NCBI GenBank assembly: GCA_913060875.1
Contig: CAJXSL010000019.1
Span: 1 to 64,000, forward strand
From: an uncultured Desulfobacteraceae bacterium
GTDB taxonomy: Bacteria; Desulfobacterota; Desulfobacteria; Desulfobacterales; UBA5852
Length of the DNA stretch: 64,000 bases
Reading direction: 5' to 3'
The notes beneath the pieces were generated by a model that did no database searches, had not been told where the DNA came from, and saw nothing but the letters and a program-made list of their open reading frames with translations. This document shows, piece after piece, positions 4,221 to 18,890 of this stretch (position 1 is its first letter; every line of letters starts with the position of its first letter). The translations under genes were made by a program, and so were the position numbers.

Positions 4221-4751
4221 ATGCGATTTGAGGATCTTGAAGTATGGAAGCGTGTAGCTCGACTGAGCGCTGACATCTATCGCCACTTGAAGGACCTGAA
4301 AGATTTCGGGTTCAAAGATCAAATAACACGATCCGGATTATCGGTACCAAGCAACATCGCGGAAGGGTTTGAAAGGCTATCTGAGAAAGAGGGTATTGCT
4401 TTCCTATCTTATGCTAAAGGTTCTGCCGGCGAACTTCGATGCCAGATCTATACTGGAATGGACATTGGATATATTCCCAAAAATATCGGAAGTTCGTGGA
4501 TCAAAAGGACCATCGAACTTTCCGCCATGATCGGCAGGTTGATCAAAACAAAAAACAGTACGTGGCGAACCGCCTCAAAATCGGTAACTGTCAGATCAAG
4601 TCTGAATTACTACAGATTAGGAAACGCAAAATGCTGCAAATATCTTTCCTTTCCCCCCTCGTTCTTCGTTCCTTACACCTCGCATCTTGAGCCTTTAACC
4701 TTCAAACTTTATCCTGGTATTTCTTATGTGCGGCATCGCCGGTATCATTGA
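4221..4751 (+). CDS. Four-helix-bundle protein (S23/IVS-encoded family)
   Basis: Residues 1 to about 110 match the four-helix-bundle family first seen in 23S rRNA intervening sequences: FEDLEVWKRVARLSADIY, then ITRSGLSVPSNIAEGFER, then FLSYAKGSAGELRCQI and MDIGYI. These proteins are usually about 115-125 residues. Here the frame runs on to 176 residues and overlaps the asparagine synthase start by 26 bases. The last 50 or so residues look like translated repeat sequence, so the original stop has probably been lost. Inverted purine-rich repeats flank the gene, suggesting it arrived as a small mobile unit. Function unknown; the related Avd proteins of diversity-generating retroelements bind nucleic acid, but no retroelement is visible here. 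Confidence 0.65.
   Translation: MRFEDLEVWKRVARLSADIYRHLKDLKDFGFKDQITRSGLSVPSNIAEGFERLSEKEGIAFLSYAKGSAGELRCQIYTGMDIGYIPKNIGSSWIKRTIELSAMIGRLIKTKNSTWRTASKSVTVRSSLNYYRLGNAKCCKYLSFPPSFFVPYTSHLEPLTFKLYPGISYVRHRRYH
4652..4705. repeat. Right flank of the four-helix-bundle gene
   Basis: The C/T-rich words cctcgttcttcgttcc and cacctcgcatcttgagcc are the inverted counterpart of the G/A-rich words at 4110-4205. They lie inside the extended reading frame of the four-helix-bundle protein. Confidence 0.35.
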
Positions 4752-6723
4752 TTTTAATCATCACGAAGACATGCAGGCCCTTCTGCAACGCATGCTGGGA
4801 TTCCTGCACCACCGGGGTCCTGACGCAGGCGGGCTTTACATGGACCATGGCGTCGGGCTGGGACACGCGCGTCTGAGTATCATCGATTTAGCCGGCGGCG
4901 ATCAACCGATCCACAATGAGGACCGTAACGTCTGGATCGTCTACAATGGTGAAGTGTTTAATTACCCCGAACTGCGCCAAGAACTCTTGACCCGCGGCCA
5001 TCGATTCTACACCACCACCGATACGGAAGTCATCGTCCATCTTTATGAAGAGATGGGCCCGGCTCTTTTTGAAAAACTCAACGGCCAGTTTGCATTTGCC
5101 ATCTGGGATGCCCGCAAACGCCACCTCATCCTTGGCCGAGACCGTGTGGGGATCCGTCCGTTATTTTACGTCCACAACGGACAACGCCTGCAGTTTGCCT
5201 CCGAAATCAAAGCCCTCTTTGCGGATGCTCGTATCCAACGCAAACTGGATTCCCAGACCCTTTCAGACATTTTCACGTGCTGGACCCCGGTGGACGACCG
5301 CACCCCTTTTACTGGCGTGCGTCAGGTCCCGGCCGGACATTACGCGAAATTTTCGGAAAAAGGGATTCGTATTACCCCTTATTGGACGATCCCTGCCGGC
5401 GATACCGATCCCGGCGAACGCCCTTTCGAGGATTGGCTGGAGGAGTTCAAAGCACTGATTCTGGATGCCACGCGCATCCGGCTGCGGGCCGACGTCCCTG
5501 TGGGCGCTTATTTGAGCGGCGGCATCGACAGTACCTATACCAGCGCGCTGGTCAAAAACAATTTCAACAACCGCCTGTGCACCTTTTCAGTCGGCTTCAG
5601 CGACCAGCGCTTCGACGAAAGCCACTTCCAGAAACTGGCCCTTGAAAGCCTTCAGACCGAACACCGCATGACCACCTGTGCCGAAAACAGTATTGGCGCC
5701 ATATTTCCGGATGTGGTCTGGCACACCGAAACGCCGATCCTGCGCACAGCGCCGGCCCCCCTCTTTCTGTTGGCCCGCCTGGTAAGGGAAACCAATTTTA
5801 AAGTTGTGCTGACTGGTGAGGGCGCCGACGAAATCATGGCCGGTTACAATATTTTCAAGGAAGCGCAGGTGCGCCGCTTCTGGGCACGCAACCCGCTTTC
5901 TGAAAATCGGCCCATGCTGCTGCAGCGCCTCTATCCTTACATTTTTGCCGAAGGCTCCGAGAGGGCCAAGCAGTATCTGAAATCCTTCTTTAAAAAAGAT
6001 CTGGAACAGACTGATTCGCCAATTTATTCGCACCTGCCGCGCTGGCACAATACCGCCCAGCTGCGACATTTCTTTTCGGATGCCTTGCGAAACCGAACCA
6101 CCGGTTCCAAACGTTTCGAGGAGCGATTCACAGCCTCGCTGCCAACCGATTTCATGCAGTGGCCGGCCCTGTCGCGTGCCCAATACATTGAAATGCGGCT
6201 TTTCCTGACCAACTACCTGCTGAGCTCCCAGGGAGACCGCATGGCCATGGCCCATTCCGTCGAAGGACGCTATCCGTTTCTGGATTACCGGGTTATCGAG
6301 TTAGCATTTCGCATGCCGCCCCGCTATCGGCTATTCGGCTTGACTGAAAAACACATATTGAAAACAGCGGCACGGGGCGTCATTCCCCCGGAATTGATCG
6401 ACCGTCCGAAGCAGCCTTACCGGGCCCCAATAAGCAGTGCTTTCGTGAGTTCCGCCCCTCCCGACTATATGGCGGACCTCTTGTCGGAAAAACGCTTGGA
6501 GGAGAGCAGCTATTTTGCCCCCCGCAAGGTTCATCAACTGCGGCTCAAGGCCCGGCAGCCCAATGGCCGGGCCTTGAGCGAACGCGAAAACATGGCCCTG
6601 GTCGGCATTATCTCGACCCAGCTTTTGGATGACCAATTTATACGGCATTTCCCGACAGAGCCCGACCATCTTCACAAGAATCTCAAGATTTACCATCAAG
6701 ACACCGAAAACAGATTGAACTGA
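4726..6723 (+). CDS. asnB: Asparagine-synthase-type glutamine amidotransferase
   Basis: A 665-residue class II amidotransferase. Cys2 (MCGIAG) is the N-terminal nucleophile that releases ammonia from glutamine, with HRGPD at 29-33 and VYNGEVFN around 72-79. The C-terminal synthase half has the ATP-pyrophosphatase loop SGGIDST at 264-270 and GEGADE near residue 365. The enzyme activates a carboxylate with ATP and amidates it. In exosortase-linked polysaccharide loci, members of this family are thought to amidate a sugar acid or other precursor rather than supply asparagine. A nadE-like gene follows 11 bases later, then an ACP and acyl-AMP ligase, so amidation of a carrier-linked product is plausible. 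The start is fixed by the required Cys2. Confidence 0.85.
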   Translation: MCGIAGIIDFNHHEDMQALLQRMLGFLHHRGPDAGGLYMDHGVGLGHARLSIIDLAGGDQPIHNEDRNVWIVYNGEVFNYPELRQELLTRGHRFYTTTDTEVIVHLYEEMGPALFEKLNGQFAFAIWDARKRHLILGRDRVGIRPLFYVHNGQRLQFASEIKALFADARIQRKLDSQTLSDIFTCWTPVDDRTPFTGVRQVPAGHYAKFSEKGIRITPYWTIPAGDTDPGERPFEDWLEEFKALILDATRIRLRADVPVGAYLSGGIDSTYTSALVKNNFNNRLCTFSVGFSDQRFDESHFQKLALESLQTEHRMTTCAENSIGAIFPDVVWHTETPILRTAPAPLFLLARLVRETNFKVVLTGEGADEIMAGYNIFKEAQVRRFWARNPLSENRPMLLQRLYPYIFAEGSERAKQYLKSFFKKDLEQTDSPIYSHLPRWHNTAQLRHFFSDALRNRTTGSKRFEERFTASLPTDFMQWPALSRAQYIEMRLFLTNYLLSSQGDRMAMAHSVEGRYPFLDYRVIELAFRMPPRYRLFGLTEKHILKTAARGVIPPELIDRPKQPYRAPISSAFVSSAPPDYMADLLSEKRLEESSYFAPRKVHQLRLKARQPNGRALSERENMALVGIISTQLLDDQFIRHFPTEPDHLHKNLKIYHQDTENRLN

Positions 6724-6734
6724 AAGGAAAAAGA

Positions 6735-7730
6735 ATGCCATCCGAAACCGGACTCAATGATGACGTCCTGGAATTGAATGCCCAGGATGAGGTGGAATCG
6801 ATCTGCGACCGGATCCGCCGGATTCTGGCCAACGACTTGAAGCGCCGAGGACTGGTAGTTGCTTTGTCCGGAGGCATCGACAGCAGTGTCACTACCGCGC
6901 TGGCCGTCAAGGCTGTCGGGCCGGAACGGGTCCTTGTCCTGTTGATGCCCGAACGCCACTCCGCGGGAGAAACCCTTGAGTTGAGCCGCAGTGTCGCCGA
7001 GGCCTTCCGTGCGCCGTATGAGCATGAAGATATATCCGGCATTCTTGAAGCTGTCGGATTTTACCGGCGTTACAATGAGGCTGTTCGTCAGGTAATCCCG
7101 GAATACGGGCAGGGCTGGAAATCCAAAATCGTCATACCGAGCGTTTTTGCGACAAAGGGGTTCAGCCTCTTTTCCATCGTGGCCCAGGACGATAAGGGCA
7201 ACGAGATCAAAAAACGGCTGCCCCTCAAGGCCTATCTCGAAATCGTCGCCGCCACCAACTTCAAGCAGCGCATCCGCAAGATGATGGAATACTACCACGC
7301 CGACCGGCTCAACTTTGCCGTGGCCGGCACACCCAATCGTCTCGAGTACGACCAGGGGTTCTTCGTCAAGCTAGGCGATGGGGCCGCCGACATCAAACCC
7401 ATCGCCCACCTATACAAGAGCCAAGTCTACCAACTGGCCGAATATCTAGGGGTTCCCGAGGAAATCCGCAAACGCCCCCCCACCACCGACACCTATTCCC
7501 TGCCCCAGGGGCAGGACGAGTTTTATTTCTCGTTGCCCCACGATAAGATGGACCTCTGTCTCTACGGCCGCAATAATAAGGTTGCCCCCGAGGTCTTGGC
7601 ACCGCTCGCGGGTATAACGCCGGGGCAGGTCCAGCGGGTATACGACGATATCGACACTAAACGTTCCACCACCCGCTATCTCCATCTGTCCCCACTTCTG
7701 GCGGGTGATGTACCGGAATTAGCCAAATGA
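6735..7730 (+). CDS. nadE: NAD+ synthetase-like ATP-pyrophosphatase (ammonia-dependent type)
   Basis: This 331-residue protein has the adenylation loop SGGIDSS at 45-51, VAGTPNRLEYDQGFFVKLGDG near 195-215, and DIKPIAHLYKSQVYQLA. These match NadE, which converts deamido-NAD and ammonia to NAD+. It lacks the N-terminal glutaminase domain found in glutamine-dependent NadE, so it needs free or delivered ammonia. An insertion around residues 110-180 is longer than in minimal NadE proteins. It follows the asnB-type gene by 11 bases. Either it is the housekeeping NAD synthetase or, by inference, a locus-specific amidating enzyme for the surface polymer; sequence alone does not decide. Confidence 0.75.
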   Translation: MPSETGLNDDVLELNAQDEVESICDRIRRILANDLKRRGLVVALSGGIDSSVTTALAVKAVGPERVLVLLMPERHSAGETLELSRSVAEAFRAPYEHEDISGILEAVGFYRRYNEAVRQVIPEYGQGWKSKIVIPSVFATKGFSLFSIVAQDDKGNEIKKRLPLKAYLEIVAATNFKQRIRKMMEYYHADRLNFAVAGTPNRLEYDQGFFVKLGDGAADIKPIAHLYKSQVYQLAEYLGVPEEIRKRPPTTDTYSLPQGQDEFYFSLPHDKMDLCLYGRNNKVAPEVLAPLAGITPGQVQRVYDDIDTKRSTTRYLHLSPLLAGDVPELAK

Positions 7731-7895: not shown

Positions 7896-8144
7896 ATGGC
7901 AGCACACAAAGAAAAAGTCAGAGCATTCATTATCGACAATTTCATGTTCGGCAGTGCGGACGGACTGACCGATGAGACATCTTTTCTTGACGAAGGCATC
8001 ATCGACTCCACGGGTATACTCGAACTCGTGGACTTCCTGGAGCAGGAATTCGGCATCCAAATCGAGGACGAAGAACTGGTCCCTGAAAATCTCGATTCTA
8101 TTACCAATGTCCACACCTTTATCGAAAACAAATTGTCGGCGTAA
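7896..8144 (+). CDS. Acyl carrier protein
   Basis: An 82-residue acidic ACP/PCP-type protein. The phosphopantetheine attachment site is Ser38 in DEGIIDSTGILEL, followed by the helix LVDFLEQEFGI and an acidic DEEL stretch, as in ACPs. The family carries acyl or aminoacyl groups as thioesters. The start ATG follows AGGGAG. The acyl-AMP ligase gene begins 20 bases downstream, so ligase and carrier probably work as a pair that loads an acid onto the carrier for transfer to a surface glycan or lipid. This pairing is typical of exosortase-associated loci. Confidence 0.85.
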   Translation: MAAHKEKVRAFIIDNFMFGSADGLTDETSFLDEGIIDSTGILELVDFLEQEFGIQIEDEELVPENLDSITNVHTFIENKLSA

Positions 8145-8164: not shown

Positions 8165-9748
8165 ATGACGAAATTCGCCCCACGCCTTACCGCCAGGCTG
8201 ATCCATCAATTCCTTGAAAGCAGCGCCGCGCTGCATCCTGAGCAAATCGCGGTGGTGCATCAGGGGGAGGCGGTTTCCTACCGCGAGCTCAACTGGCGCT
8301 CCAACCGGTTTGCCCATTGGCTGATCGATAACGGCATCGCGCCCGGCGACCGAGTGCCGTTTATCATGGAAAACGGCATCGACTACGTAACGGTCTATTA
8401 CGGAATCCTGAAAGCCGGGGCAGTGGCGGTGCCCTTAAGCACCGATCTCAAGCCGGCCTCTCTAAGACCGTTGCTCGAAGAGCTGGCACCCTCGGCATTC
8501 GTCGCGACTTCCCGTTTCGAGCGTCTCTTAAAGGCGACGGATTACCCGTGGCCGCTGCTCGTGATCGGCAACCCGAAGCTGGCCTGGCAGGCGCTCTCGG
8601 TTCAAGTTGCCGCGCTCGACGAGATTGTCAGGACACCATCATCCGAAAGCGACACCCCCAAGCTTGATTTGGATGCCAACCGTCTGGCCAGCATCATCTA
8701 TACCAGCGGCTCCACGGGCAAGCCCAAAGGTGTCATGTTGAGCCACCGCAATATTGTCGACAATGCCAATGCCATTTGCGATTATCTCGAATTGACCGCC
8801 AGGGATATCCAAATGGCTGTGCTGCCGTTTTTCTACGTCATGGGCAAATCCCTGCTCAACACCCATGTTGCCGCCGGTGGACGCGTGGTGATCAACAACA
8901 AGTTTGCCTACCCGGCAGCGGTGGTGCAGGAAATGGCGACGGCGGAAGTGACCGGCTTTTCGGGTGTGCCCTCGACATACGCCTACCTGCTGCATCGATC
9001 GCCGCTCGCCAAATACCGCGATCGATTGCCGGCCCTGCGATACTGTTCCCAGGCCGGGGGCCACATGTCCGCGCACATCAAGCAGGAACTGCTTCGCATT
9101 TTGCCATCCCACACCAGGCTTTTCATCATGTACGGCGCCACCGAGGCGGCTGCGCGGCTGACCTATCTGCCGCCCGAACATATACGAGTGAAAATGGAAT
9201 CCATTGGCATTGCCATCCCGGGCGTCACCATGAAGGTCTTGGATAAACAGGGCAACAATCTACCCACCGGGCAAGTCGGCGAAATTGTCGGTGCCGGCAG
9301 CAATATTATGATGGGATATTGGAAAAACCCGGAGGCGACGGCCAAAGCGTTGGATGCACATGGATATCATACCGGCGACATCGGCTACTGCGATGCCGAA
9401 GGCTTTTTTTATCTGGTTGGCCGGCGTGACAATCAACTTAAAATCAAGGGGCACCGCATCAATCCCCAAGAGGTGGAGGACGCCCTGGCGGCAAGCGGTC
9501 TGGTAATCGAATCCGTCGTCCTGGGAATTCCCGATGACCTCCAGAGCTATCGGCTGGCAGCCCTTGCGGTACCCCGTAGCGAATGCTGCCATCAGCAAAA
9601 AATCCGCCACCTGTTGTCTGAGATGCTCCCGACCTATAAGATACCGCACGAAATCAAATTCTGTCGCAACCTTCCGATGAACGCCAATGGCAAGATCGAT
9701 CGTCAAAAATGCCTGGCCATCATGACCGCAAATCCGAAACAGCTCTAA
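8165..9748 (+). CDS. Acyl-CoA/acyl-ACP ligase (AMP-forming), exosortase-locus type
   Basis: A 527-residue ANL-superfamily adenylating enzyme. The P-loop YTSGSTGKPKG lies at 179-189, followed by YGATEAA, then TGDIGYCDAEGFFYLVGRRDNQLKIKGHRI, the hinge region. The C-terminal catalytic Lys is in MNANGKIDR. It forms an acyl-adenylate and transfers the acyl group to CoA or, given its neighbour, to the phosphopantetheine of the ACP encoded just upstream. The family often occurs next to exosortase genes as an 'exosortase-associated acyl-CoA ligase'. All signature motifs are intact. Substrate identity is not evident. An exosortase gene begins 23 bases downstream. Confidence 0.85.
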   Translation: MTKFAPRLTARLIHQFLESSAALHPEQIAVVHQGEAVSYRELNWRSNRFAHWLIDNGIAPGDRVPFIMENGIDYVTVYYGILKAGAVAVPLSTDLKPASLRPLLEELAPSAFVATSRFERLLKATDYPWPLLVIGNPKLAWQALSVQVAALDEIVRTPSSESDTPKLDLDANRLASIIYTSGSTGKPKGVMLSHRNIVDNANAICDYLELTARDIQMAVLPFFYVMGKSLLNTHVAAGGRVVINNKFAYPAAVVQEMATAEVTGFSGVPSTYAYLLHRSPLAKYRDRLPALRYCSQAGGHMSAHIKQELLRILPSHTRLFIMYGATEAAARLTYLPPEHIRVKMESIGIAIPGVTMKVLDKQGNNLPTGQVGEIVGAGSNIMMGYWKNPEATAKALDAHGYHTGDIGYCDAEGFFYLVGRRDNQLKIKGHRINPQEVEDALAASGLVIESVVLGIPDDLQSYRLAALAVPRSECCHQQKIRHLLSEMLPTYKIPHEIKFCRNLPMNANGKIDRQKCLAIMTANPKQL

Positions 9749-9771: not shown

Positions 9772-10695
9772 ATGACTGAATTGCCGCTTGGAAAAAGACC
9801 CCCGGCCTCGAGAGTGCAGGCACGCCATCCCGCATTGCGGCATATTGCCTTTGCCGGGTTCGTCGCCGCCGGCGTCCTTTTGTATTGGGGCCCCTTGGTG
9901 AAACTATCCCGTCTGTCGATGCACAACGAACTGTACTCGCACTTCCTCCTCATCCCGTTCGTCAGCCTGTTTTTCCTGTATGTCCAGCACACGCGCTGCT
10001 TCGAGGTGATACAACCGGCCCGGCGATGGGGCCTGCCGGTGATCCTGACGGGGATCGCGGTTATGGTAGCAGGCTACCAATTTCGCAGCCATTTGAGCCC
10101 GAACGACTTTCTCTCCTTGTGCCTGACGGGTATGGTCTGCTGGATCAATGGCGGCTTCCTGTGGTTTTATGGCCAAAAGGCCTACCGGGAAGCCCTCTTT
10201 CCCCTTTTGTTTCTCGTCTTCACCATACCGATTCCCGATATTGTTCTGGAACCGGTTGTCCGGCTGCTCCAGGTCGGTTCGGCCCATGCCGTTAACGGGG
10301 CCTTCACTATGATCGGCATCCCCTACTTCCGGGATGACATGGTTTTTCAGTTGAGCGGTATCACCATCGAGGTGGCCAAAGAGTGCAGCGGTATCCGATC
10401 CAGTCTAATTCTCGTAATCACCAGCACCATTGCCGGATATATGTTCCTGGAAAGCGCATGGCGGCGAATTGTCTTGATCCTGGCCATCATTCCGCTTACA
10501 ATATTTAAAAATGCCCTTCGCATCACAACCCTGTCATTGTTGGCGTCCTATGTGGATCCACATTGGATCACCGGTAGCTGGCTACACAGAAGCGGGGGCA
10601 TTGTGTTTTTCCTCATTGCCCTGGCCGTGCTTGCCCCCCTGCTTTGGTATTTAAAACGATCTGAAATACGGACACACGAAGCTACAAATATTTGA
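9772..10695 (+). CDS. Exosortase (transmembrane cysteine transpeptidase)
   Basis: A 307-residue integral membrane protein with about eight hydrophobic segments. It carries the exosortase/archaeosortase catalytic triad: Cys205 in ECSGIRS, Arg250 in KNALR and His272 in LHRSGG; YSHFLLIP near 55-62 is also typical. Exosortases cleave C-terminal PEP-CTERM-like tails and anchor or release the protein at the cell surface, alongside polysaccharide export. This one lacks the EpsI domain found in longer exosortases. I found no PEP-CTERM-type tail on any protein in the window, so its substrates lie elsewhere or carry an unrecognised signal. It probably shares a transcript with the ACP and ligase genes. 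Confidence 0.88.
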   Translation: MTELPLGKRPPASRVQARHPALRHIAFAGFVAAGVLLYWGPLVKLSRLSMHNELYSHFLLIPFVSLFFLYVQHTRCFEVIQPARRWGLPVILTGIAVMVAGYQFRSHLSPNDFLSLCLTGMVCWINGGFLWFYGQKAYREALFPLLFLVFTIPIPDIVLEPVVRLLQVGSAHAVNGAFTMIGIPYFRDDMVFQLSGITIEVAKECSGIRSSLILVITSTIAGYMFLESAWRRIVLILAIIPLTIFKNALRITTLSLLASYVDPHWITGSWLHRSGGIVFFLIALAVLAPLLWYLKRSEIRTHEATNI

Positions 10696-10972
10696 CCAGG
10701 TTCAATACGGAGGTATCTAACCGGCGGCATTGGAATGACCGGTGTAACGCCGCAGCCCGACAAAGGGCGGGGCGTTGACAACCATTTGGCCGCTTTGGGG
10801 ACTGCTATGGAATGGGCTTGATGATATGGGTATTTTTTTTCACAATTGGCTTCAATACGTCTGCGACAGGGAAATGAAGTCCATAAAACTGCGGATTGAA
10901 AATTAGCTGATCAAATCCATAGATATTGATTTTAATAATATTTTCAGATTGATGTGATCTCCAGTATCAATC
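10696..10972. other. Intergenic region between exosortase and sugar transferase genes
   Basis: No coding signal. AACGCC (10746-10751) pairs with GGCGTT (10771-10776), with an inner CCC/GGG pair, giving a stem-loop without a clear T-run. The rest is AT-rich and leads to a possible sigma-54 promoter. Confidence 0.4.
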
Positions 10973-10988
10973 TGGCACGCAAATTGAT
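10973..10988 (+). promoter_or_regulatory. Weak sigma-54-like promoter of the sugar transferase gene
   Basis: TGGCACG-N4-TTGAT matches the -24 element fully, but the -12 element has GA where GC is expected, so activity is doubtful. The transferase ATG is 50 bases downstream. GCACG and CGTGC also form a small inverted repeat here. Confidence 0.3.
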
Positions 10989-11038
10989 TCTAACGTGCTA
11001 AATGACGATATCAGCATCCATCGAAATAGCGGGGAAAT

Positions 11039-12700
11039 ATGATCGACGCCGAAGTTGAAACCCAAAATACATGCATGATCCCCAAAATAGAACCACAGTC
11101 AGCAAACCGTATCAACAAGCAGCATGGTTTGCTGTCCTACAAAGGCGGGCTTGTCCTGCACGATCTTCTTATCCTGATGGCTGTGACCTTGGTTTGCTGC
11201 CGGCCATGGAACAGCGCAGCCCAGTTCCTGCTGAACGGTTTGATGGTCGCCGCAACGATTTCTCTCGCCATCAATTTCAGGCTCTACAGCTATCACCTCA
11301 TCTTTTCCCTGCGCCATCACCTGGTCGCTATCGGTAAAACCTTTCTTTTTGCATTGCTGACGCTATCCATCGTCATCGCCATCATGACGATACCGGAAGA
11401 AACCATCAATGCCTATCTGGTTCCCGTGACGTTGGTAACTGCAACCGCGGTCGTTGCCATTAACCGAAAGTTCAACTGGGATCTATTGGGTCTGCTTTAC
11501 CCGGTTGGTTTTTCATTTTTCATCATTGGTATTTTTGAGAGCATCCGCGTCTACTTCCCATTGGAAAGCAGTTTTTCCTGGTATCCGTCGTTTCGCATGC
11601 TGTTTTTGGGTGCCGTGTCCATTATAATCTGCCGAACGATTCTTGTTCATTTGATCTTCAACCGCCTGCTGCGCAAACGCTTTCGTCGCCAAGTCCTGAT
11701 TGTGGGAGCCAACAGCGAAGCCAACACCTTTGCCAAACACGTGCTGGACAAAAACGCCCCCTTCTGGATTGCCGGTACGGTCGAAGGCGCACACTATGAA
11801 AATTGCCGGTTGACGGAAGTCCCCAACAAAGCCTGCCTGGGCGACCTGCGGCAACTCCCGGAGCTTTCCCTGCAGCACAAAATCAGTGAAATTGTCGTTA
11901 CCAGCAAAAGCATATCCAAACATGATCTTATCGCCATTCTGGATTTTTGCACCTCCGCCGGCATCAATGCGTGGTTTTCACCACGCCTTATGCCGATTAT
12001 CGATGTCAAGCTCCACATTGACAGTTTCTGCGGCAAACCCATGATTCGACTGTGTTCCCAAAAGCGTTCCTGGCTATTTTACAAACTGAAACATATCAGT
12101 GATGCCCTGATCACTTTGCCGGCCTTTATTTTACAGATGCCGTTTTTCCTGATGATTATGGCTCTTATTAAACTGGAGTCCAAGGGGCCGGTTTTCTACC
12201 TGGCGCGCGCCATCGGGAAAAGTGGCAGCCCTTTCAATATGTATAAATTCCGCTCGATGTATGTTGACTCGGACAAATCAATTCACCAGCAATATGTCAC
12301 GAAATTGATCAAGGGTGAAATTGACCAGGAGGACGCCGAAAAAGGTCCCATCAAAATTGTCCAGGATCCGCGTGTCACCAAGGTCGGCCGAATTCTGCGC
12401 AAACTAAGCCTTGATGAGTTGCCCCAGTTGATCAACGTGCTGAAGGGCCAGATGAGCCTCGTGGGCCCCAGACCCTGCCTCCCCTATGAATATGAAATCT
12501 ACCAGGATTGGCATAAAAAAAGGACCGCCGTCCGGCCGGGCATCACCGGTTTATGGCAGGTAACCGGGCGCAGTGAAGTGCTTTTCGAGGACATGATTTT
12601 GCTGGACCTCTATTACATCTATAACAACAGCCTGATGCTGGATCTCCAGATCCTGTTTGAAACGGTTTTTGTTGTACTTGGCAAAAAAGGCGCCTATTAG
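11039..12700 (+). CDS. Undecaprenyl-phosphate sugar phosphotransferase
   Basis: A 553-residue polyprenyl-phosphate hexose-1-phosphate transferase of the WcaJ/EpsL type. The N-terminal half has four to five hydrophobic segments followed by a Rossmann-like CoA-binding-fold domain (QVLIVGANSEA, about residues 220-230). The C-terminal third is the bacterial sugar-transferase domain, with MYKFRSMY near 400, then KLSLDELPQLINVLKGQMSLVGPRP and RPGITGLWQV. It moves a sugar-1-phosphate from a UDP-sugar to undecaprenyl phosphate at the inner membrane, the first step of polysaccharide repeat-unit assembly. An intrinsic terminator follows 36 bases after the stop codon. Confidence 0.88.
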   Translation: MIDAEVETQNTCMIPKIEPQSANRINKQHGLLSYKGGLVLHDLLILMAVTLVCCRPWNSAAQFLLNGLMVAATISLAINFRLYSYHLIFSLRHHLVAIGKTFLFALLTLSIVIAIMTIPEETINAYLVPVTLVTATAVVAINRKFNWDLLGLLYPVGFSFFIIGIFESIRVYFPLESSFSWYPSFRMLFLGAVSIIICRTILVHLIFNRLLRKRFRRQVLIVGANSEANTFAKHVLDKNAPFWIAGTVEGAHYENCRLTEVPNKACLGDLRQLPELSLQHKISEIVVTSKSISKHDLIAILDFCTSAGINAWFSPRLMPIIDVKLHIDSFCGKPMIRLCSQKRSWLFYKLKHISDALITLPAFILQMPFFLMIMALIKLESKGPVFYLARAIGKSGSPFNMYKFRSMYVDSDKSIHQQYVTKLIKGEIDQEDAEKGPIKIVQDPRVTKVGRILRKLSLDELPQLINVLKGQMSLVGPRPCLPYEYEIYQDWHKKRTAVRPGITGLWQVTGRSEVLFEDMILLDLYYIYNNSLMLDLQILFETVFVVLGKKGAY

Positions 12701-12736
12701 GGCTTCCTTAAGCACCAAACCATACCCCGTTAGTAT

Positions 12737-12774
12737 AAAAAGCCCGCCAGGCTTCTGCTTGGCGGGCTTTTTTT
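12737..12774 (+). terminator. Intrinsic terminator after the sugar transferase gene
   Basis: AAGCCCGCC and GGCGGGCTT form a strong GC-rich stem with a short loop, directly followed by a run of seven T. It ends the polysaccharide transcript. Confidence 0.9.
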
Positions 12775-13061
12775 GTGGCTGTTTTTATAGTCGGTTGATT
12801 GATTGATTATCCAAAAGCAGACGGTCACTTGCAACCGAATGTCCAAAGCCTACCGGGAAAAATTCCTTCGGGGGCAATAAAAATTGGAAAATAATAATAA
12901 CGTCCGGCCCAAAAGGTCATCGCACGGATTCGATAAAATTCCCGATGATTATAATTTTTTCCACGAAATATCTAAAGTAAATCTCACGGTTGTACGATAA
13001 ATTTAAAGAAGACTCGCTTCTCATCACGGCACCCCCGTCTTTGCAATTCTGATTCTCCAGT
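12775..13061. other. AT-rich intergenic region
   Basis: About 290 bases with no open frame of note, between the terminator and the sigma-54 promoter of the Ig-like gene. Such a length would leave room for upstream activator binding, but I see no clear repeated operator. Confidence 0.4.
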
Positions 13062-13077
13062 TGGCCTGATCATTGCA
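13062..13077 (+). promoter_or_regulatory. Sigma-54 promoter of the Ig-like protein gene
   Basis: TGGCCTG (13062-13068), four bases, then TTGCA (13073-13077) gives both invariant doublets of the -24/-12 consensus (GG and GC) at the right spacing. The predicted start near 13088 lies 42 bases before the ATG at 13130. It also rules out a TTG start at 13073. Exosortase systems are known to use sigma-54 regulators (PrsK/PrsR). Confidence 0.6.
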
Positions 13078-13129
13078 AATTACCTCGCGCCAGAAATTAA
13101 TTCCATTTACGAGTGAGGTAAAAATAGCA

Positions 13130-14869
13130 ATGCGAAATCGTCTCTTTTCTCTTCTTCTGATGATACTTGTCTTTTTATCACTACCGGCTTTTCTAATCGC
13201 AGGGTCTGTCCAACTTAGCTGGCAGCCCAACACGGAGGCTGATCTCCAGGGATACAACCTTTACTACGGCACGGAATCGCGCCAGTATGGGCCGCCGATG
13301 CCGGCAGATAAAACCGCCCAGATCACGCTTTCCGAGCTCGAAGAAGGCGTTGAATACTACTTCGCCGTCAGTGCCGTCGACACGGCCGGCAACGAAAGCG
13401 GCTTCTCCGAAGAGATTTCCAAACTGATCTCTTCGACAGATCCACAGCTTCCCGTCGTATACATTACTTCACCGGTGGAGGCAGAAACCTACACCTCGAA
13501 TAAGGCCGTGATCGACCTTGCCGGCACGGCGGGCGACAACGACAGCATCAAGCAGATCACCTGGAGCAGCTCCACCGGCGCCAACGGTATTGCCTCCGGC
13601 ACAGCCAGCTGGTCCATTTCCGGCATTAATCTTGCCGAAGGCCAGAACGTCATCACCGTTACAGCCACCGATGCCAGCGGCAACCAGACATCCGATACCA
13701 TTACCGTATCCTACACAGCCCCCGACACCCAGGCTCCCGAGGTGACCATCACGGCACCCGCTGTTTCACCTGATGGCGCCTACCAAGCCACCAGCAGCAC
13801 CCTGCAGCTGTCCGGAACCGCCCAGGATGACCATGGCGTCGCCAAGGTGACCTGGTCCATGGGCGATACCGGCGGCATCGCCGAGGGAACCACCAACTGG
13901 TCCGTTTCTGCCATACCCCTCAACGAGGGCCTCAACACCATCACCGTAACGGCTGAGGACGAGGCCGGGAACCCGGGCTCCACGAGCATCCTCATCAATT
14001 ATGCCGCTCCGGACACAACCTTACCAGTCATCGCCATCACTTCACCGGTAACGGCAGAAACCTACACCTCGAACCAAACTACGATCGACCTCGCCGGCAC
14101 AGCCGGCGACAACGACAGCATCAAGCAGATCACCTGGCGCAGTTCCACCGGCGCCAACGGTGTCGCCTCCGGCACCGCCAGCTGGTCCATTGCCGGCATT
14201 AACCTTGTCGAAGGCCAGAACGTCATCACCGTCACTGCCGCCGATGCCAGCGGCAATCAGGCATCCGATACCATTTCCGTATCCTACACAGCCCCCGACA
14301 CCCAGGCCCCGGTGGTGACCATCACGATACCCGCTGTTTCCCCTGATGGCGCCTACCAAGCCACCAGCAGCACCCTGCAGCTGTCCGGAACCGCCCAGGA
14401 TGACCATGGCGTCGCCAAGGTAACCTGGTCCATGGGGGATGCCGGCGGCATCGCCGAGGGGACCACCAACTGGTCCATTTCCGGCATTAGTCTTGCAAGT
14501 GGTACTAATGTCATAACGGTTACGGCCACTGATGTCGCAGGCAACCAGTCGTCAGCCAAGCTGACGGTGACCTATGAAGCCGCCGACACTACGGCTCCAA
14601 GCGTCAAGATAACGTCGCCGACGACGAAAAGCTCTTATTTCTCACGAACGGCAACAGTCGATATCGGCGGAACGGCCAGTGACAACAGTGGCATCGATAA
14701 AGTTGTATGGAAAAACTCCCGTGGCGAAAGTGGCACCTGCAACGGTACGGATACATGGCAAGCCTCTGGAATAAAAATCAATCGCTGGTGGAACACCATC
14801 ACGGTGACGGCCATTGATAGCGCGGGGAATACCGAAACTTACTTTCTTAAGGTGTTTCGATGGAAATAG
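13130..14869 (+). CDS. Secreted Fn3/Ig-like repeat protein
   Basis: A 579-residue protein with a Sec signal peptide (MRNRLFSLLLMILVFLSLPAFLIA). An Fn3-like domain follows (about 27-110: SWQPNTEADLQGYNLYYG, VEYYFAVSAVDTAGNES). Then come five tandem Ig-like repeats of about 95 residues, each ending in a NTITVTAxDxAGN pattern. Repeats 1-2 and 3-4 are almost identical at DNA level with a 573-base period, a recent tandem duplication; repeat 5 is divergent. No LPxTG, PEP-CTERM or transmembrane anchor is present, so it is probably released or held by the surface polymer. The start is set by GAGTGAGG before ATG 13130 and by the sigma-54 promoter. Confidence 0.8.
   Translation: MRNRLFSLLLMILVFLSLPAFLIAGSVQLSWQPNTEADLQGYNLYYGTESRQYGPPMPADKTAQITLSELEEGVEYYFAVSAVDTAGNESGFSEEISKLISSTDPQLPVVYITSPVEAETYTSNKAVIDLAGTAGDNDSIKQITWSSSTGANGIASGTASWSISGINLAEGQNVITVTATDASGNQTSDTITVSYTAPDTQAPEVTITAPAVSPDGAYQATSSTLQLSGTAQDDHGVAKVTWSMGDTGGIAEGTTNWSVSAIPLNEGLNTITVTAEDEAGNPGSTSILINYAAPDTTLPVIAITSPVTAETYTSNQTTIDLAGTAGDNDSIKQITWRSSTGANGVASGTASWSIAGINLVEGQNVITVTAADASGNQASDTISVSYTAPDTQAPVVTITIPAVSPDGAYQATSSTLQLSGTAQDDHGVAKVTWSMGDAGGIAEGTTNWSISGISLASGTNVITVTATDVAGNQSSAKLTVTYEAADTTAPSVKITSPTTKSSYFSRTATVDIGGTASDNSGIDKVVWKNSRGESGTCNGTDTWQASGIKINRWWNTITVTAIDSAGNTETYFLKVFRWK
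13488..14580 (+). repeat. 573-bp tandem duplication inside the Ig-like gene
   Basis: The segment starting at 13488 recurs from 14061 with long identical runs, covering two Ig-like repeats (191 residues). It is in frame. High identity over both synonymous and non-synonymous sites points to a recent duplication or ongoing gene conversion. Confidence 0.8.
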
Positions 14870-14956
14870 ATTGATAAGAAGCAGTCGGCCAATGCTACAC
14901 TGCTTCGCGTTAAAACTAAGCATACCAGATAGGAAAAAGTTCGTCAGAAGGAGTCA

Positions 14957-15688
14957 ATGAAAATGTACACTAAATCTTTCATAGCTGTTTTAATTACATA
15001 TTTTAGTTTAATTTCATTTTGTTCGGCAGCCACATTGGTCTGGGACGCCAGCACCGGAACGGTTGATGGATACAAGGTTTACTACGGCACCAGTGCAACC
15101 AACCCTTCCGAATCCGTCAATGTCGGTAATGTCACCCAATACGCCATCGATTCATTGCCGTTATCTGAAAATGTCCAATATTATTTTTGCGTTTCGGCCT
15201 ACAATACCGCTGGTGAAAGCGATCCCTGTGCACCCGTGGCCTATACCCCTTCGGACACGACGCCGCCAACACCTCCAATAGGTCTAGTAGCACATGCCTC
15301 CTCAGCAAGTAATGGAAATACCGAGGTGGCCCTGTGGTGGACAACTTATTCCAACCGTAGCAGCAACGTACCGGTGGACATCTATGACGGAGCCAATTTG
15401 CTTGATACCGTCACCGTGGATCAAAAAACGAACGGGGGGCAGTGGAACGTTCTCGGCTCCTACACCTTTAGTAGCCAGCCTAAAGTGGTCATCCGGGCCG
15501 TGGGCTCTGATAGCACCTGCGCTGATGCTGTCAAACTCACCGATAGCAACGGTAACGAAAGTATCATCGACAACGGAGCCTCAGGCACTAGCTATACCGG
15601 TACCTGGAAAATTTCCATTGGTACCAGTTACTACGGCAGCCAGTCCTTATTTTCGAGTGATGGCGCAACCTACACCTTTGCCCTTTGA
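14957..15688 (+). CDS. Secreted Fn3-domain protein
   Basis: A 243-residue protein with a signal peptide ending near FCSAA. An Fn3 domain (TLVWDASTGTVDGYKVYYG to YYFCVSAYNTAGESDPCAPV) and an acidic/proline linker (DTTPPTPP) follow. A C-terminal Ig-like domain lies at about residues 125-240. The Fn3 half is a paralogue of the 117-residue protein encoded at 17213-17566 and of the pseudogene at 16264-16539. It lies 87 bases after the Ig-like gene, preceded by AGAAGGAG. Probably an extracellular matrix or surface component; no anchoring signal is visible. Confidence 0.7.
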   Translation: MKMYTKSFIAVLITYFSLISFCSAATLVWDASTGTVDGYKVYYGTSATNPSESVNVGNVTQYAIDSLPLSENVQYYFCVSAYNTAGESDPCAPVAYTPSDTTPPTPPIGLVAHASSASNGNTEVALWWTTYSNRSSNVPVDIYDGANLLDTVTVDQKTNGGQWNVLGSYTFSSQPKVVIRAVGSDSTCADAVKLTDSNGNESIIDNGASGTSYTGTWKISIGTSYYGSQSLFSSDGATYTFAL

Positions 15689-15789
15689 ACTTTTAATATA
15701 GCGATGTAATATTTGGCAGAGATAACCCGCTGAAATAATAACAGCATCATATAGACTCTTTAATCTCACATTAGGTTGATAATACTAAT

Positions 15790-15823
15790 AAAGGACGGGA
15801 GATTGGCCTTCCGTCCTTTTTTG
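15790..15823 (+). terminator. Intrinsic terminator after the Fn3 gene
   Basis: AAGGACGG and CCGTCCTT pair around a short loop and are followed by six T. It closes the Ig-like/Fn3 transcript. Confidence 0.85.
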
Positions 15824-16061
15824 TACCAACGAAAAGATACACAGGATACACTAACTTCAATAAAAATAATCCACCATGAAAGGCTTGAAAATCATGGGAA
15901 AATAGATTGTTGGTCTTCAGGCAATAAGGGAAAGGCCTTTGCCCTGTTGGACTTTGCATATAATCAGATAAAATCTTTTTGGCGCTGTGATCATTTGTGT
16001 CCAATTGATGGTAGGAGGCCATCGATATTCCAACCCGATTTCTGATCAATCAGATTACCGG
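15824..16061. other. Intergenic region with no recognisable gene
   Basis: About 240 AT-rich bases. Open frames on both strands (15776-16049) have no family features and no Shine-Dalgarno, so I treat the stretch as non-coding. Confidence 0.4.
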
Positions 16062-16091
16062 TTGTCAAAAATCATCAAATCAGTGTATACA
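16062..16091 (+). promoter_or_regulatory. Promoter of the decayed Fn3 copy
   Basis: TTGTCA-N18-TATACA. The same sequence with nearly the same spacer occurs at 17091-17120 in front of the intact paralogue, so the promoter was duplicated with the gene. Confidence 0.5.
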
Positions 16092-16263
16092 AAAACTGAC
16101 CAACCGAGTCGGTTTTCAACTACAAGCCGTATGCCTTTGGCGATTTTTTCATCTAAGCCTCCTAGTCCGTGCATTATGCCAGAAAGCTCTACTTTTAAAA
16201 TGCAAACTTTTAGGGGAAACTTACTTGACGACGATCATCTCGTTTTCGGTGCCCACCATAACG

Positions 16264-16539
16264 GCAGCAGGAACGCTAGCTTAGGACGGAATTTCGGGAA
16301 TAATTGACGGGTATATAGTTTACTGGGGAACCAGTTCGAGCGACCGCTCCAACTCGAGGAATATGGGTAATATAACACACTGCGACTTGAATAGTTTGCC
16401 TTTGTCCGAAGGCATCCCCTATTACCTGTGCGTCTCGGCTTACAATGCCGCCGTCGAAAGTCCACCATGTGCACCGGTGGTGTTTACGCCCGGGGACAAT
16501 ACGCCGACCTTACCGCCTGTGGGGCTTACTACCGAGTGA
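16264..16539 (+). pseudogene. Fn3-domain pseudogene, decayed copy of the 17213 gene
   Basis: Reading from GCA at 16264, the frame parallels the intact paralogue (ATLV-D...DGY-VYWG, YYLCVSAYN, ESPPCAPVVFTPGDNTP, PPVGLTTE, stop). TAG at 16282-16284 replaces the tryptophan codon of LVWD, and the signal-peptide part upstream is no longer recognisable. The stop after GLTTE at 16537 is shared with the intact copy, which shows that the short form is an established gene structure. Together with the conserved promoter at 16062-16091 it marks a roughly 1-kb tandem duplication. Confidence 0.75.
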
Positions 16540-16695
16540 GAACGGCAGGCTATTAGGCTTTAGGAAAAACGCTAAGGATAGCCTGCTGATTAATCGGTTT
16601 TCCTACAGCCTATAGCCCAAACCACTACAGCCGGATCCATTCCTAAACACAATGTCACCACGAAGGACTCAAAGGAGTTGCCTTCGGCAAAGGGT
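16540..16695. repeat. Intergenic repeat modules C and A
   Basis: Contains a C module (cctacagcctatagccc) and a short A-type module (caccacgaaggactcaaagg), leading directly to the 262-bp element. Confidence 0.55.
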
Positions 16696-16957
16696 CTAAC
16701 CCGAACATTTCATGAAATTTTGTCTACACAATAAATTTTATGCAAATCTTCAAGGGTATAAACGCTATTCGGGATATGATTTTCAGGTGACACGTTGTAC
16801 CCTTCACCGATCTCCAGAATCATAGAAAAAGTTTCACCCTGCGGGCACGCTCGAGATGCCCATTGGCCGCGTTATCAGGGGCTTGCGGTACAGGCGTACA
16901 GCGGCGCCCCTGATGCCTTATCAATGAACATCTCGAACGCGTGAAATATCCGGGATA
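16696..16957 (+). mobile_element. MITE-like 262-bp element, copy 1
   Basis: Non-coding element bounded by CTAACCCGAACATTTCATG on the left and GTGAAATATCCGGGATA on the right, imperfect terminal inverted repeats. Inside, CGAGATGCCCATTGG pairs with CCAATGAACATCTCG, and ATCAGGGGC with GCCCCTGAT. Copies 2 and 3 lie at 23612-23875 and 45953-46215 in the same orientation. No transposase is encoded, so movement would need one in trans. Confidence 0.7.
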
Positions 16958-17085
16958 GCTGAAAGGAAAAACCTACATTCCTATTAATTTTAGGCCTTCC
17001 CCACAGCCTACAGCCTAAACCCCTACCGCCTGATCTGTAACGATCTGTGTTCATCCGTGCCCCTTTCCACTATTCAAACCAGGTT
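16958..17085. repeat. Intergenic repeat modules B, C and D
   Basis: Successive gctgaaaggaaaaacc (B), ccacagcctacagcctaaac (C) and gatctgtgttcatccgtg (D) words in the order seen elsewhere in the window. Confidence 0.55.
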
Positions 17086-17090
17086 GTCGG

Positions 17091-17120
17091 TTGTCAACAT
17101 TATGAAAATCAGTGTATACA
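17091..17120 (+). promoter_or_regulatory. Promoter of the intact Fn3 gene
   Basis: TTGTCA-N18-TATACA, duplicated from or with the copy at 16062-16091; 92 bases before the ATG. Confidence 0.5.
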
Positions 17121-17212
17121 ATTGATAACCTAATACCGTTGTTTATCGGTGGGGGAAATCCTCATTTCACCGATCCGATGAAAAAAATTGGCTTTCTGAA
17201 GGGAACACGGGC

Positions 17213-17566
17213 ATGGGAAAAAACCGGGGAATGATGGCCGTTGGCGTGATATGGGCTTTGGCAGCCTTTTTTTTCATCCCAGCTTTACTTTCAGCAGAAA
17301 CGCTCGTCTGGGATGCCAGTTCCGGGACCGTGGACGGGTATCATGTCTATTATGGGACAACACCAAGCGATCAATCCAACTACCGTGATGTGGGTAATGT
17401 CACCCAACTGGATATAAACAACCTGCCACTCTCCGAGGGTGTAACCTACTATCTTTCCGTATCCGCCTACAATGAGGCCGGCGAAAGCCCGCCGTGTGCG
17501 CCGGTGGTGTTCACACCGGGCGACAATACGCCGCCCATACCGCCTGTGGGGCTGACGACTGAGTGA
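17213..17566 (+). CDS. Small secreted Fn3-domain protein
   Basis: A 117-residue protein with a signal peptide (MGKNRGMMAVGVIWALAA, ending LLSA) and one Fn3 domain (TLVWDASSGTVDGYHVYYG, YYLSVSAYNEAGESPPCAPV). It stops after a proline-rich PPIPPVGLTTE tail. The same stop occurs in the adjacent pseudogene, so the short length is genuine and not a truncation. The longer paralogue at 14957 carries an extra C-terminal domain. Predicted extracellular; partner unknown. AAGGGA precedes the start. Two conserved Cys-region residues (PPCAP) are shared by all copies. Confidence 0.65.
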   Translation: MGKNRGMMAVGVIWALAAFFFIPALLSAETLVWDASSGTVDGYHVYYGTTPSDQSNYRDVGNVTQLDINNLPLSEGVTYYLSVSAYNEAGESPPCAPVVFTPGDNTPPIPPVGLTTE

Positions 17567-17579
17567 GAAAGGCAGGATA

Positions 17580-17642
17580 TTAGCCCGAATATTTGCATAA
17601 AATTTATTGTGTGGAAAAAATTTCATGAAATATCCGGGTTAG
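17580..17642 (-). mobile_element. 62-bp deletion derivative of the MITE-like element
   Basis: Read on the minus strand it begins CTAACCCGGATATTTCATG, continues through about 45 bases of the left end of the 262-bp element, and ends ATATTCGGGCTAA. Both terminal repeats are kept and the interior is lost. It sits just after the Fn3 stop codon; the equivalent place behind the pseudogene lacks it, so it inserted after the duplication or was lost there. Confidence 0.65.
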
Positions 17643-18000
17643 GCTGTAGACTGATAGGCTACAGGAAAGGTGAAAAGGATGACCTGCGGTTTAAACGGTT
17701 TTCTACAGCCTATAGCCTAAACACCTACAGCCTGATCTGCCTTTAAAGACATTTTTCACCATGAAGAGCATGAAGGACTTGAAGGGGTAAAATCGAAAAC
17801 AAACAAATTACACCACGAAGGACGCGAAGAGGCACGAAGGGAAACAGAAGCGCCAAGCTGAAAGGGAAAAACCTCAAATAATTTTACCACGAAGGGCACG
17901 AAGAACACGAAGCAATAACTACAGGGCCTGGAAAATTCTCGCGGAGCGATTTCATCTGTGTGTATCTGTGTTCATCTGTGGCACTTTCTTTTCTAGCCGG
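17643..18000. repeat. Composite intergenic repeat modules before rmlA
   Basis: Contains C (cctacagcctatagcctaaa), A (accatgaagagcatgaagg and accacgaaggacgcgaag), B (cgccaagctgaaaggg), another A and a D' (gtgtgtatctgtgttcatc) module. No coding signal in about 360 bases. Confidence 0.6.
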
Positions 18001-18008
18001 AGAATTAA

Positions 18009-18890
18009 ATGAAAAAATACAAAGGCATCATTCTGGCCGGCGGGTCCGGTACCCGCTTGTTTCCGATTACGAGTGTGGTCTGTAAACAGCTGCTGCCGGT
18101 TTACGACAAACCCATGATCTACTACCCATTGTCGGTCCTCATGCTGGCCGGCATCCGCGATATCCTGATCATCTCGACACCCGAGGACCGACCCAAGTAC
18201 CAGGCCCTTTTTGACGACGGATCCCGGTTTGGCCTGCAAATTTCTTATGCGGTGCAGCCCCGGCCGGAAGGCCTGGCCCAGGCCTTCATCATCGGCCGTG
18301 AACACATCGGAGACGATAATGTCTGCCTGATTCTGGGGGATAATATCTTTTTTGGATACGGTTTTTCCGCGATTCTGGAACGCGCCACACAAATGGAAAC
18401 CGGCGGGTTGGTTTTCGGGTACTGGGTAAGGGACCCGGAACGCTATGGTGTGGTGGAATTTGACCATGGCGGCAAGGTGCTCAGCATCGAGGAAAAACCG
18501 CAGCAGCCCAAATCCAATTATGCGGTACCCGGCCTCTATTTTTTTGACAACCGGGTGGCCGATATCGCCGCCGCTGTCAAACCGTCACCACGCGGGGAGT
18601 TGGAGATTACAGAAGTCATCGATGCTTACCTAAAAATGGAGGCGTTGCGCGTGGAAACCATGGGACGCGGCTACGCCTGGCTGGATGCCGGTACACACGA
18701 ATCCTTGCTGGATGCCTCCAACTTCATCGAAACGATCCAAAAACGCCAGGGCCAGAAAATAGGCTGCATCGAGGAAGTTGCCTTTCGCAAAGGGTTCATC
18801 GACCGAACGCAGCTCATTGAACTGGCCGGCCCCTACATGAAAAATGATTATGGCAAGTATTTGGTTGAGTTGGCGAACGGGATGCCGTGA
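18009..18890 (+). CDS. rmlA: Glucose-1-phosphate thymidylyltransferase
   Basis: A 293-residue enzyme making dTDP-glucose from dTTP and glucose-1-phosphate, the first step of dTDP-L-rhamnose synthesis. The nucleotide loop [11 protein letters not shown] begins at residue 11, followed by [16 protein letters not shown]. Other signatures are GLAQAF, LGDNIF and [13 protein letters not shown]. Full length for RmlA. ATG 18009 follows GGAG. rmlC and rmlD follow on the same strand after a 225-base gap; rmlB is beyond them on the opposite strand. Confidence 0.95.

Follow-up and report, generated by a model that had tools for sequence, protein, structure and literature searches.

Exosortases act by cutting a C-terminal sorting tail and transferring the protein that carried it. 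In the PEP-CTERM/EpsH system, as described in the accessible part of Haft et al. 2006 (PMC1569441), the exosortase gene lies in an extracellular polysaccharide (EPS) locus, the PEP-CTERM genes are scattered over the genome, and sigma-54 -24/-12 motifs precede part of them. RpoN dependence is reported in the accessible part of PMC9850573 for the PEP-CTERM gene pepA of Aquincola tertiaricarbonis, whose transcription start was determined. In Geobacter sulfurreducens, the Fn3 protein GSU1945 has a locus number next to those of the PEP-motif genes GSU1943 and GSU1944 (accessible part of PMC10599522). Here we analyze an exosortase gene and its neighbors in a 64,000-nucleotide (nt) stretch of DNA from an uncultured Desulfobacteraceae bacterium (contig CAJXSL010000019.1, C19 below, positions 1 to 64,000), which we call the window. 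Window position 1 is the contig end, and the source genome is 5.88 Mb and 99.73% complete. We propose, with a probability of about 0.7, that the window exosortase processes PEP-CTERM proteins encoded elsewhere in the genome, and that the secreted Ig-like/Fn3 proteins encoded beside it are unanchored partners under partly common sigma-54 control. The enzyme and its immediate neighbor are as follows:

9772..10695, + strand: exosortase, 307 amino acids (aa), without an EpsI domain match; model score closest to XrtC, subtype unnamed; Cys205, Arg250 and His272 conserved (profile matches, alignment, tree).
11039..12700, + strand: polyprenyl glycosylphosphotransferase (sugar transferase), encoded next to the exosortase in most members of the window's clade (TIGR03025, 339.5 bits against a cut-off of 295.55).

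An earlier note on this DNA had read the gene at 9772-10695 as an exosortase with a full Cys/Arg/His triad, and both statements hold. The protein matches PF09721 at 160.9 bits (cut-off 25.7) and passes the general exosortase model TIGR02602 at 126.8 bits (cut-off 105.55). Cys205, Arg250 and His272, which we take to be the catalytic residues, are invariant in 12/12 aligned homologues (alignment A1). None of the subtype models was passed. The closest is XrtC (TIGR04151), and its score of 192.5 bits against a cut-off of 300 rules out an XrtC label. Scores and cut-offs for the others were 127.8/208 for XrtA, 65.7/275 for XrtB, 130.7/400 for XrtD, 90/313 for XrtV and 137.9/425 for XrtW. The XrtC model is matched by 12/12 members of A1 at 1e-10 or better, and the same members also match the XrtA, XrtB, XrtD, XrtV and XrtW models.

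A profile search of the genome found 21 matches to the PEP-CTERM model TIGR02595, all over the cut-off, and none of the 21 is on the window's contig. Twenty of them each occupy one frame and have a helix-basic tail, in which the motif reads VPEP in 17, TPEP in 2 and VFEP in 1. None of the 21 tails reads VPDSG, although no search was made with the VPDSG-CTERM model itself. Among the 301 open reading frames (ORFs) of at least 60 aa in the window, none has a PEP-CTERM tail. Seven have a C-terminal helix followed by basic residues, as judged by a crude rule, and none of these seven has a PEP motif; the exosortase itself is one of them, and the Ig-like and Fn3 genes are not. Thus, the earlier description of an exosortase without visible substrates is right for the window and wrong for the genome, and an orphan enzyme is not supported. 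The same note had named many normal PEP-CTERM proteins elsewhere, with a regulon of their own, as evidence that would speak against its reading, and the first half of this was found in the 21 matches. One PEP-CTERM gene (C8:55783) has its start and its tail in separate frames and a sigma-54-like site upstream.

Only two PF09721 exosortases were detected in the genome, the window enzyme and one on contig C21. The latter is XrtD, at 595.8 bits against a cut-off of 400, and has an EpsI domain (161.8 bits against 42.8). The XrtD model is named VPLPA-CTERM-specific, and the VPLPA model TIGR03370 has five matches in the genome, three of them over the cut-off. Because the sole other detected exosortase is of the VPLPA type, the window enzyme is paired by elimination with the PEP-CTERM proteins, a pairing that is well supported indirectly. 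An apparent orphan is therefore replaced by a testable assignment, PEP-CTERM proteins with the window enzyme and VPLPA proteins with XrtD. At G000:C10:4084-5226, a sigma-54 site is followed by a gene for a secreted protein that ends in PTPVPASLWLAISGLTLLVGLRRYR and has no NCBIfam match. The next gene has a VPLPA-CTERM match, and both products are candidate XrtD substrates.

Relatives of the enzyme have similar company. A scan of named genomes with alignment A1 gave 42 exosortase loci, mostly in Desulfobacterales, Syntrophaceae and other former Deltaproteobacteria, and also in Nitrospirota and Acidobacteria. We examined a set of 44 genomes, reached from these loci or by genome identifier. PEP-CTERM proteins occur in 40/44. 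One exosortase was detected in 27 genomes of the set, and 23 of these 27 have PEP-CTERM proteins (1 to 26 each). We also made a quick tree of 43 rows (41 of the 42 loci, the window enzyme and XrtD), leaving out exosortase matches under 150 BLAST bits and trimming the long L131 frame to its final 310 residues. Some end branches are long, and support was taken from the Shimodaira-Hasegawa-like approximate likelihood ratio test (SH-aLRT), without bootstrap. The window enzyme falls in a 10-row group with SH-aLRT support of 98, in which a sugar transferase gene is a neighbor in eight rows (window counted) and neither neighbor marker is present in two. PEP-CTERM proteins accompany six of the seven one-exosortase genomes of this clade. 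Thus, the window's exosortase clade accompanies ordinary PEP-CTERM tails. Directly before the exosortase in L105 (904-1296) and L106 (7854-8258) is a gene whose small, secreted product ends in a VPESS or VLDSS motif, a helix and basic residues. This variant tail scores 18.8 bits with TIGR02595 (cut-off 16) in L105 and is not reported in L106.

Downstream of the sugar transferase gene are a sigma-54 site and a group of genes for secreted proteins:

10973..10988, + strand: weak sigma-54-like site TGGCACG-N4-TTGAT, unsupported as a promoter (without the -12 GC, not conserved).
12737..12774, + strand: strong intrinsic terminator in the interval between the sugar transferase and Ig-like genes (-29.5 kcal/mol, z -7.06, then a T run).
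13062..13077, + strand: sigma-54 -24/-12 site TGGCCTG-N4-TTGCA (pattern and matrix match).
13130..14869, + strand: secreted protein, 579 aa, with Fn3 and Big_7/Glucodextran_B repeats, without a C-terminal anchor (domain matches; signal-peptide-like N terminus by reading); called the Ig-like protein here.
14957..15688, + strand: secreted Fn3 and Golvesin_C-like protein, 243 aa, without a C-terminal anchor (domain matches, translation).
16265..16556, + strand: degenerate Fn3 gene copy, 71% identical to 17292-17583 (sequence comparison).
17213..17566, + strand: short secreted single-Fn3 protein, 117 aa (domain match, translation).

The site TGGCCTG-N4-TTGCA had been picked out in the earlier note, whose coordinates stop where this site does, at 13077; the Ig-like gene itself extends to 14869. 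The site occurs once in the window, with both conserved halves present, and 52 nt separate it from the ATG at 13130. For comparison, the accessible part of Haft et al. (PMC1569441) gives a mean distance of 71 nt, with a standard deviation (SD) of 38.5, from motif 2 to the PEP-CTERM start. The window site is well above chance: the pattern TGGCNYGN4TTGCW has 36 matches genome-wide against 10 for a reversed control, and 0.00026 are expected per 300-nt upstream region. Five of the 36 are without a gene start under the distance filter, and the window's own site is among these five because of that filter. No sigma-70-like match was found on the + strand of 12160-15154, in a scan that gave 17 matches in total against 10.4 expected (SD 3.0). 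Since a terminator precedes the site and no sigma-70-like match was found, the Ig-like gene is probably driven from its own sigma-54 promoter. The weaker site that the note had placed before the sugar transferase gene did not hold up as a promoter: it is missing the C of the -12 GC, and nothing comparable precedes any of the 8/8 sugar transferase genes beside relative exosortases (best score 13.4 of 16.2, against 14.2 in the window).

Sigma-54-like sites also precede part of the PEP-CTERM set. The strict pattern stands upstream of 2/21 PEP-CTERM genes (C4:118422 and C15:66585; P 1e-5). In a matrix scan, 7/21 have a site scoring at least 14, four at least 14.5, three at least 15 and two at least 15.5. 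The reversed matrix gave 0/21 at each threshold, and 0.29 are expected at 14 or above. We made the matrix ourselves after the window site was known and set the threshold of 14 after the scores had been seen, so the binomial P of 8e-9 for 7/21, calculated from the control rate, belongs to a threshold chosen late. We infer a sigma-54 regulon common to the Ig-like gene and PEP-CTERM genes, which these sites support moderately.

The usual regulators of such a regulon were not recovered. The search for prsR and prsK suggested in the earlier note gave neither protein over its cut-off in the window's genome: the best PrsR match (TIGR02915) scores 444.6 bits against 502.6, and the best PrsK match (TIGR02916) scores 109.4 against 300 and covers the kinase part only. 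The activator would therefore have to be another protein, and the common regulon that the note had proposed stays plausible for its sites and its Fn3/Ig linkage, with the absence of a PrsR or PrsK over the cut-off counting against it. There are 58 sigma-54-activator-like matches over 230 bits in the genome. Among relatives, PrsK is over the cut-off in 22/44 genomes, and a PrsK-like neighbor lies within 9 kb of the exosortase at 21/42 loci (neighbor counts take PrsK at 300 or more and PrsR at 400 or more BLAST bits). At locus L094, PrsK (389.7 bits) and PrsR (652.1 bits) both pass their cut-offs. At E <= 1e-60, PrsK is present in 1/10 genomes of the window's group and in 26/34 others (Fisher P 0.0003, uncorrected for relatedness). 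This points to a clade mostly without the usual PEP-CTERM kinase.

One candidate substitute for PrsR was considered and rejected. It is a 456-aa sigma-54 activator-like protein (L106, 12239-13606), encoded beside the exosortase, sugar transferase and Fn3 genes in L105 and L106. It is present in 6/10 clade genomes: besides that of L106, five of them have an orthologue 54 to 85% identical, and the seven genomes searched from other clades gave nothing so similar. The best match in the window's own genome is just 42% identical, which is the level of unrelated activators, and in four other genomes there is no exosortase in the 6 to 20 kb around the activator (one of these is a 6.3-kb contig).

Fn3/Ig-like genes recur beside relative exosortases. 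They lie within 9 kb of the enzyme at 13/42 loci, and at six of these (L108, L113, L122, L130, L134 and L137) the gene directly follows the exosortase, on the opposite strand, with a PrsK-like kinase gene after it. Of these kinases, only two (L113 and L122) score above the PrsK cut-off; the L137 kinase reaches 277.5 against 300, and those of L108, L130 and L134 have weak similarity (66 to 168 BLAST bits). For a linkage test, we searched the 44 genomes with an 11-row Fn3 model built from Fn3 domains near exosortases and used the 58 listed matches of at least 72 bits. Of these, 19 are within 10 kb of an exosortase. After the 11 model-building rows were removed, 8 of 47 matches remained near, from six genomes, against 0.36 expected at most (P 2.7e-9, which assumes an even spread and independent matches; three of the eight share one genome). 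Thus, an Fn3 subfamily is tied to exosortase loci in several groups. Our limited survey of open-licence literature found no statement of such a link in the accessible parts of the papers, and no paper on exosortases in Desulfobacterota. In the window, 15680-18010 contains the decayed Fn3 copy and repeated noncoding stretches of 25 to 45 nt (families D2 to D5) between the Fn3 genes, as from local duplication.

How these proteins end is variable. The L113 protein has a CFI-box-CTERM domain (107 bits against a cut-off of 40), and a CFIATAAYG stretch is also seen by eye in L130, L134 and L137. The L105 and L106 proteins, and by eye that of L122, have a Cys-containing, glycine-rich stretch followed by a helix, and those of L108 and L124 have lipoprotein-like N termini by reading. 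By the crude rule, there is no C-terminal helix in the Fn3/Ig proteins of the window, L123, L133, L138 and L140. Such varied anchors argue against one sorting enzyme taking all these proteins as substrates and speak for surface proteins that are released or anchored in other ways. The window Ig-like and Fn3 proteins do not have the features of PEP-CTERM substrates (PEP motif, membrane helix and basic tail). An unusual sorting tail, which the earlier note had offered as one of two options, was rejected, as none of these proteins is among the seven ORFs picked out by the crude rule. The other option, a nonanchored matrix protein, fits proteins that have no C-terminal membrane segment. The window Fn3/Ig proteins therefore look like unanchored, possibly coregulated matrix partners rather than substrates; the matrix role itself is a guess from their domains.

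The explanation that we favor starts from the genes, tails, model scores, sites, terminator and linkage counts observed here. We infer from them an enzyme-tail pairing, a common activator, secretion and a matrix role, which might fit together as follows. PEP-CTERM proteins encoded on other contigs would be exported by an N-terminal signal peptide and held in the inner membrane by the PEP-helix-basic tail. The Cys/Arg/His site of the exosortase would then cut the tail and transfer the protein to the cell surface or to the polysaccharide made by the neighboring EPS genes, and XrtD would handle the few VPLPA-type tails. Sigma-54 would switch on a subset of the PEP-CTERM genes and, jointly with them, at least the Ig-like gene. 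The Ig-like/Fn3 proteins would be exported and then released as unanchored matrix or adhesive partners. The implication for biofilm biology would be that PEP-CTERM surface proteins are accompanied by unanchored partners. A further step is speculative and, in our estimate, unlikely: a PEP-CTERM branch that has an exosortase subtype of its own, next to a sugar transferase, may have swapped PrsK/PrsR for another sigma-54 activator, which also drives a tail-less Fn3/Ig matrix protein as a standing partner of the exosortase. If so, the cell would make, as one set, PEP-CTERM proteins that are sorted and a binder that is released freely.

The points that weigh against our explanation concern partly the regulon and partly the pairing. 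As to the regulon, 14/21 PEP-CTERM genes have no sigma-54-like site of at least 14, and just four reach 14.5. Motif 1 of the PrsK/PrsR regulon is 17 nt long, ends in TTTACA and lies about 63 nt upstream; a palindrome that we guessed for it, TGTAAA-N5-TTTACA, is near background in the window's genome and in PrsR-bearing genomes alike, so no common activator site was found by this guess. Among relatives, a site of at least 14.5 precedes only 2/14 Fn3/Ig genes near an exosortase (L105 and L123), against 12/380 other ORFs, which include PEP-CTERM genes (P 0.07). Fn3/Ig genes are also found without a nearby exosortase, one of them in another polysaccharide-type cluster on C10 (by reading), so some of the linkage may be explained by EPS loci. 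The Fn3/Ig genes might then be bystanders of the EPS cluster, with the sigma-54 site belonging to a regulon other than that of the PEP-CTERM genes. The many activator-like proteins of the genome would allow this, as would the genes behind three other TGGCNYGN4TTGCW sites, which resemble pilA, nifH and glnB (N termini by reading). Against it stand the 8/47 linkage result, a PEP-CTERM gene on C9 with an Fn3 stub about 1 kb ahead of it, and the recurrence of sigma-54 sites in the window's clade, to which both L105 and L123 belong (2/5 Fn3/Ig genes there, P 0.009, a subset chosen after the scores had been seen). We regard bystander genes as a possible but doubtful account.

As to the pairing, two of the five VPLPA places coincide with PEP-CTERM matches (C1:1074631, over the VPLPA cut-off, and C4:75575, under it), so the two tail types are not cleanly apart and XrtD might take PEP tails too. 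Four of the 27 one-exosortase genomes have no PEP-CTERM match, and a second exosortase may be missed in draft genomes. In the window's order, 14/291 genomes match the exosortase at 1e-30, the window's own included; it was not found at that level in four other genomes of the genus and one other of the family, so it is sporadic. The window enzyme could thus be limited to assembling the polysaccharide of its own cluster, with XrtD serving all PEP-CTERM proteins. The enzyme does sit among EPS genes, and the accessible part of PMC1569441 refers to an older proposal of EpsH as a flippase or polymerase. This account is improbable in view of the PEP-CTERM proteins in 23/27 one-exosortase genomes, the invariant Cys/Arg/His residues, and an XrtD model named for VPLPA tails. 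Least of all do we expect that the neighboring Fn3/Ig proteins are a private, unrecognized substrate class with a sorting signal other than PEP-CTERM: their frequency near the enzyme, including the six placed before a PrsK-like kinase, and the C-terminal helix and basic tail that the crude rule finds in L105, L106, L113, L130, L134 and L137 would suit it, but the window proteins have no such helix, the relatives' ends differ in kind, and classic PEP-CTERM proteins are present in 40/44 genomes with this exosortase.

Upstream of the exosortase is a biosynthetic cassette, preceded by two further genes:

2746-4098: DUF362 protein, joined to the cassette (domain match).
4221-4748: 23S rRNA-intervening-sequence-type protein, directly before the amidotransferase (PF05635, 102.1 bits).
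4726..6723, + strand: asparagine-synthase-type amidotransferase, resembling TIGR03108 (XrtA/PEP-CTERM system amidotransferase) below the cut-off (411.4 against 816.9 bits).
6735..7730, + strand: NAD synthase family protein, a member of the amidotransferase/acyl carrier protein/ligase cassette (NF002048, 500.9 bits against a cut-off of 313).
7896..8144, + strand: acyl carrier protein (ACP), 82 aa (DSxG motif by reading; homologues in L102, L123 and L138).
8165..9748, + strand: AMP-forming acyl-CoA ligase, resembling TIGR03098 (exosortase A system-associated) below the cut-off (345.8 against 592.35 bits).

At least two of amidotransferase, ACP and acyl-CoA ligase occur at 3/42 loci (L102, L123 and L138), and NAD-synthase homologues lie near the exosortases of L103, L120 and L138. 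If the NAD-synthase-like and DUF362 proteins are added to these three, at least three of the five occur near the exosortase at 4/42 loci (L103, L120, L123 and L138). In L094, the exosortase is followed by a protein 68% identical to that of 4221-4748; in L095, a weaker PF05635-type relative lies about 2 kb from the exosortase.

This cassette resembles the one associated with XrtA (TIGR03098 and TIGR03108), in that an amidotransferase, an ACP and an acyl-CoA ligase stand beside an exosortase. It differs in that the members tested from the window, L123 and L138 score below the TIGR03098 and TIGR03108 cut-offs, and the window adds an NAD-synthase-like and a DUF362 protein. The enzyme itself is most like XrtC, the VPDSG-CTERM-specific exosortase, which is its best-scoring subtype and of similar length; it is set apart by its sub-cut-off score and by the 0/21 tails reading VPDSG. 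As for the Aquincola pepA, a surface-related gene is under a sigma-54 site in a genome with PEP-CTERM proteins, but pepA has a PEP-CTERM tail and the window Ig-like gene has none (PMC9850573, accessible part). The Geobacter case is also alike, with an Fn3 gene adjoining PEP-motif genes by locus number alone; the accessible part of PMC10599522 puts GSU1945 and these genes in different tables and remarks on no link.

The closest likeness is to the PEP-CTERM/EpsH system of Haft et al., with which the window's genome shares an exosortase in an EPS locus, scattered PEP-CTERM genes, and sigma-54 motifs before part of them. Unlike that system, this genome has no PrsK or PrsR over the cut-off and has Fn3/Ig partner genes beside the enzyme, and the enzyme is without an EpsI domain (no search covered a separate EpsI gene). 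The system is therefore a PEP-CTERM/exosortase system, and it differs from the described ones in having no PrsK/PrsR over the cut-off, an exosortase of an unnamed subtype, and a linked tail-less Fn3/Ig partner.

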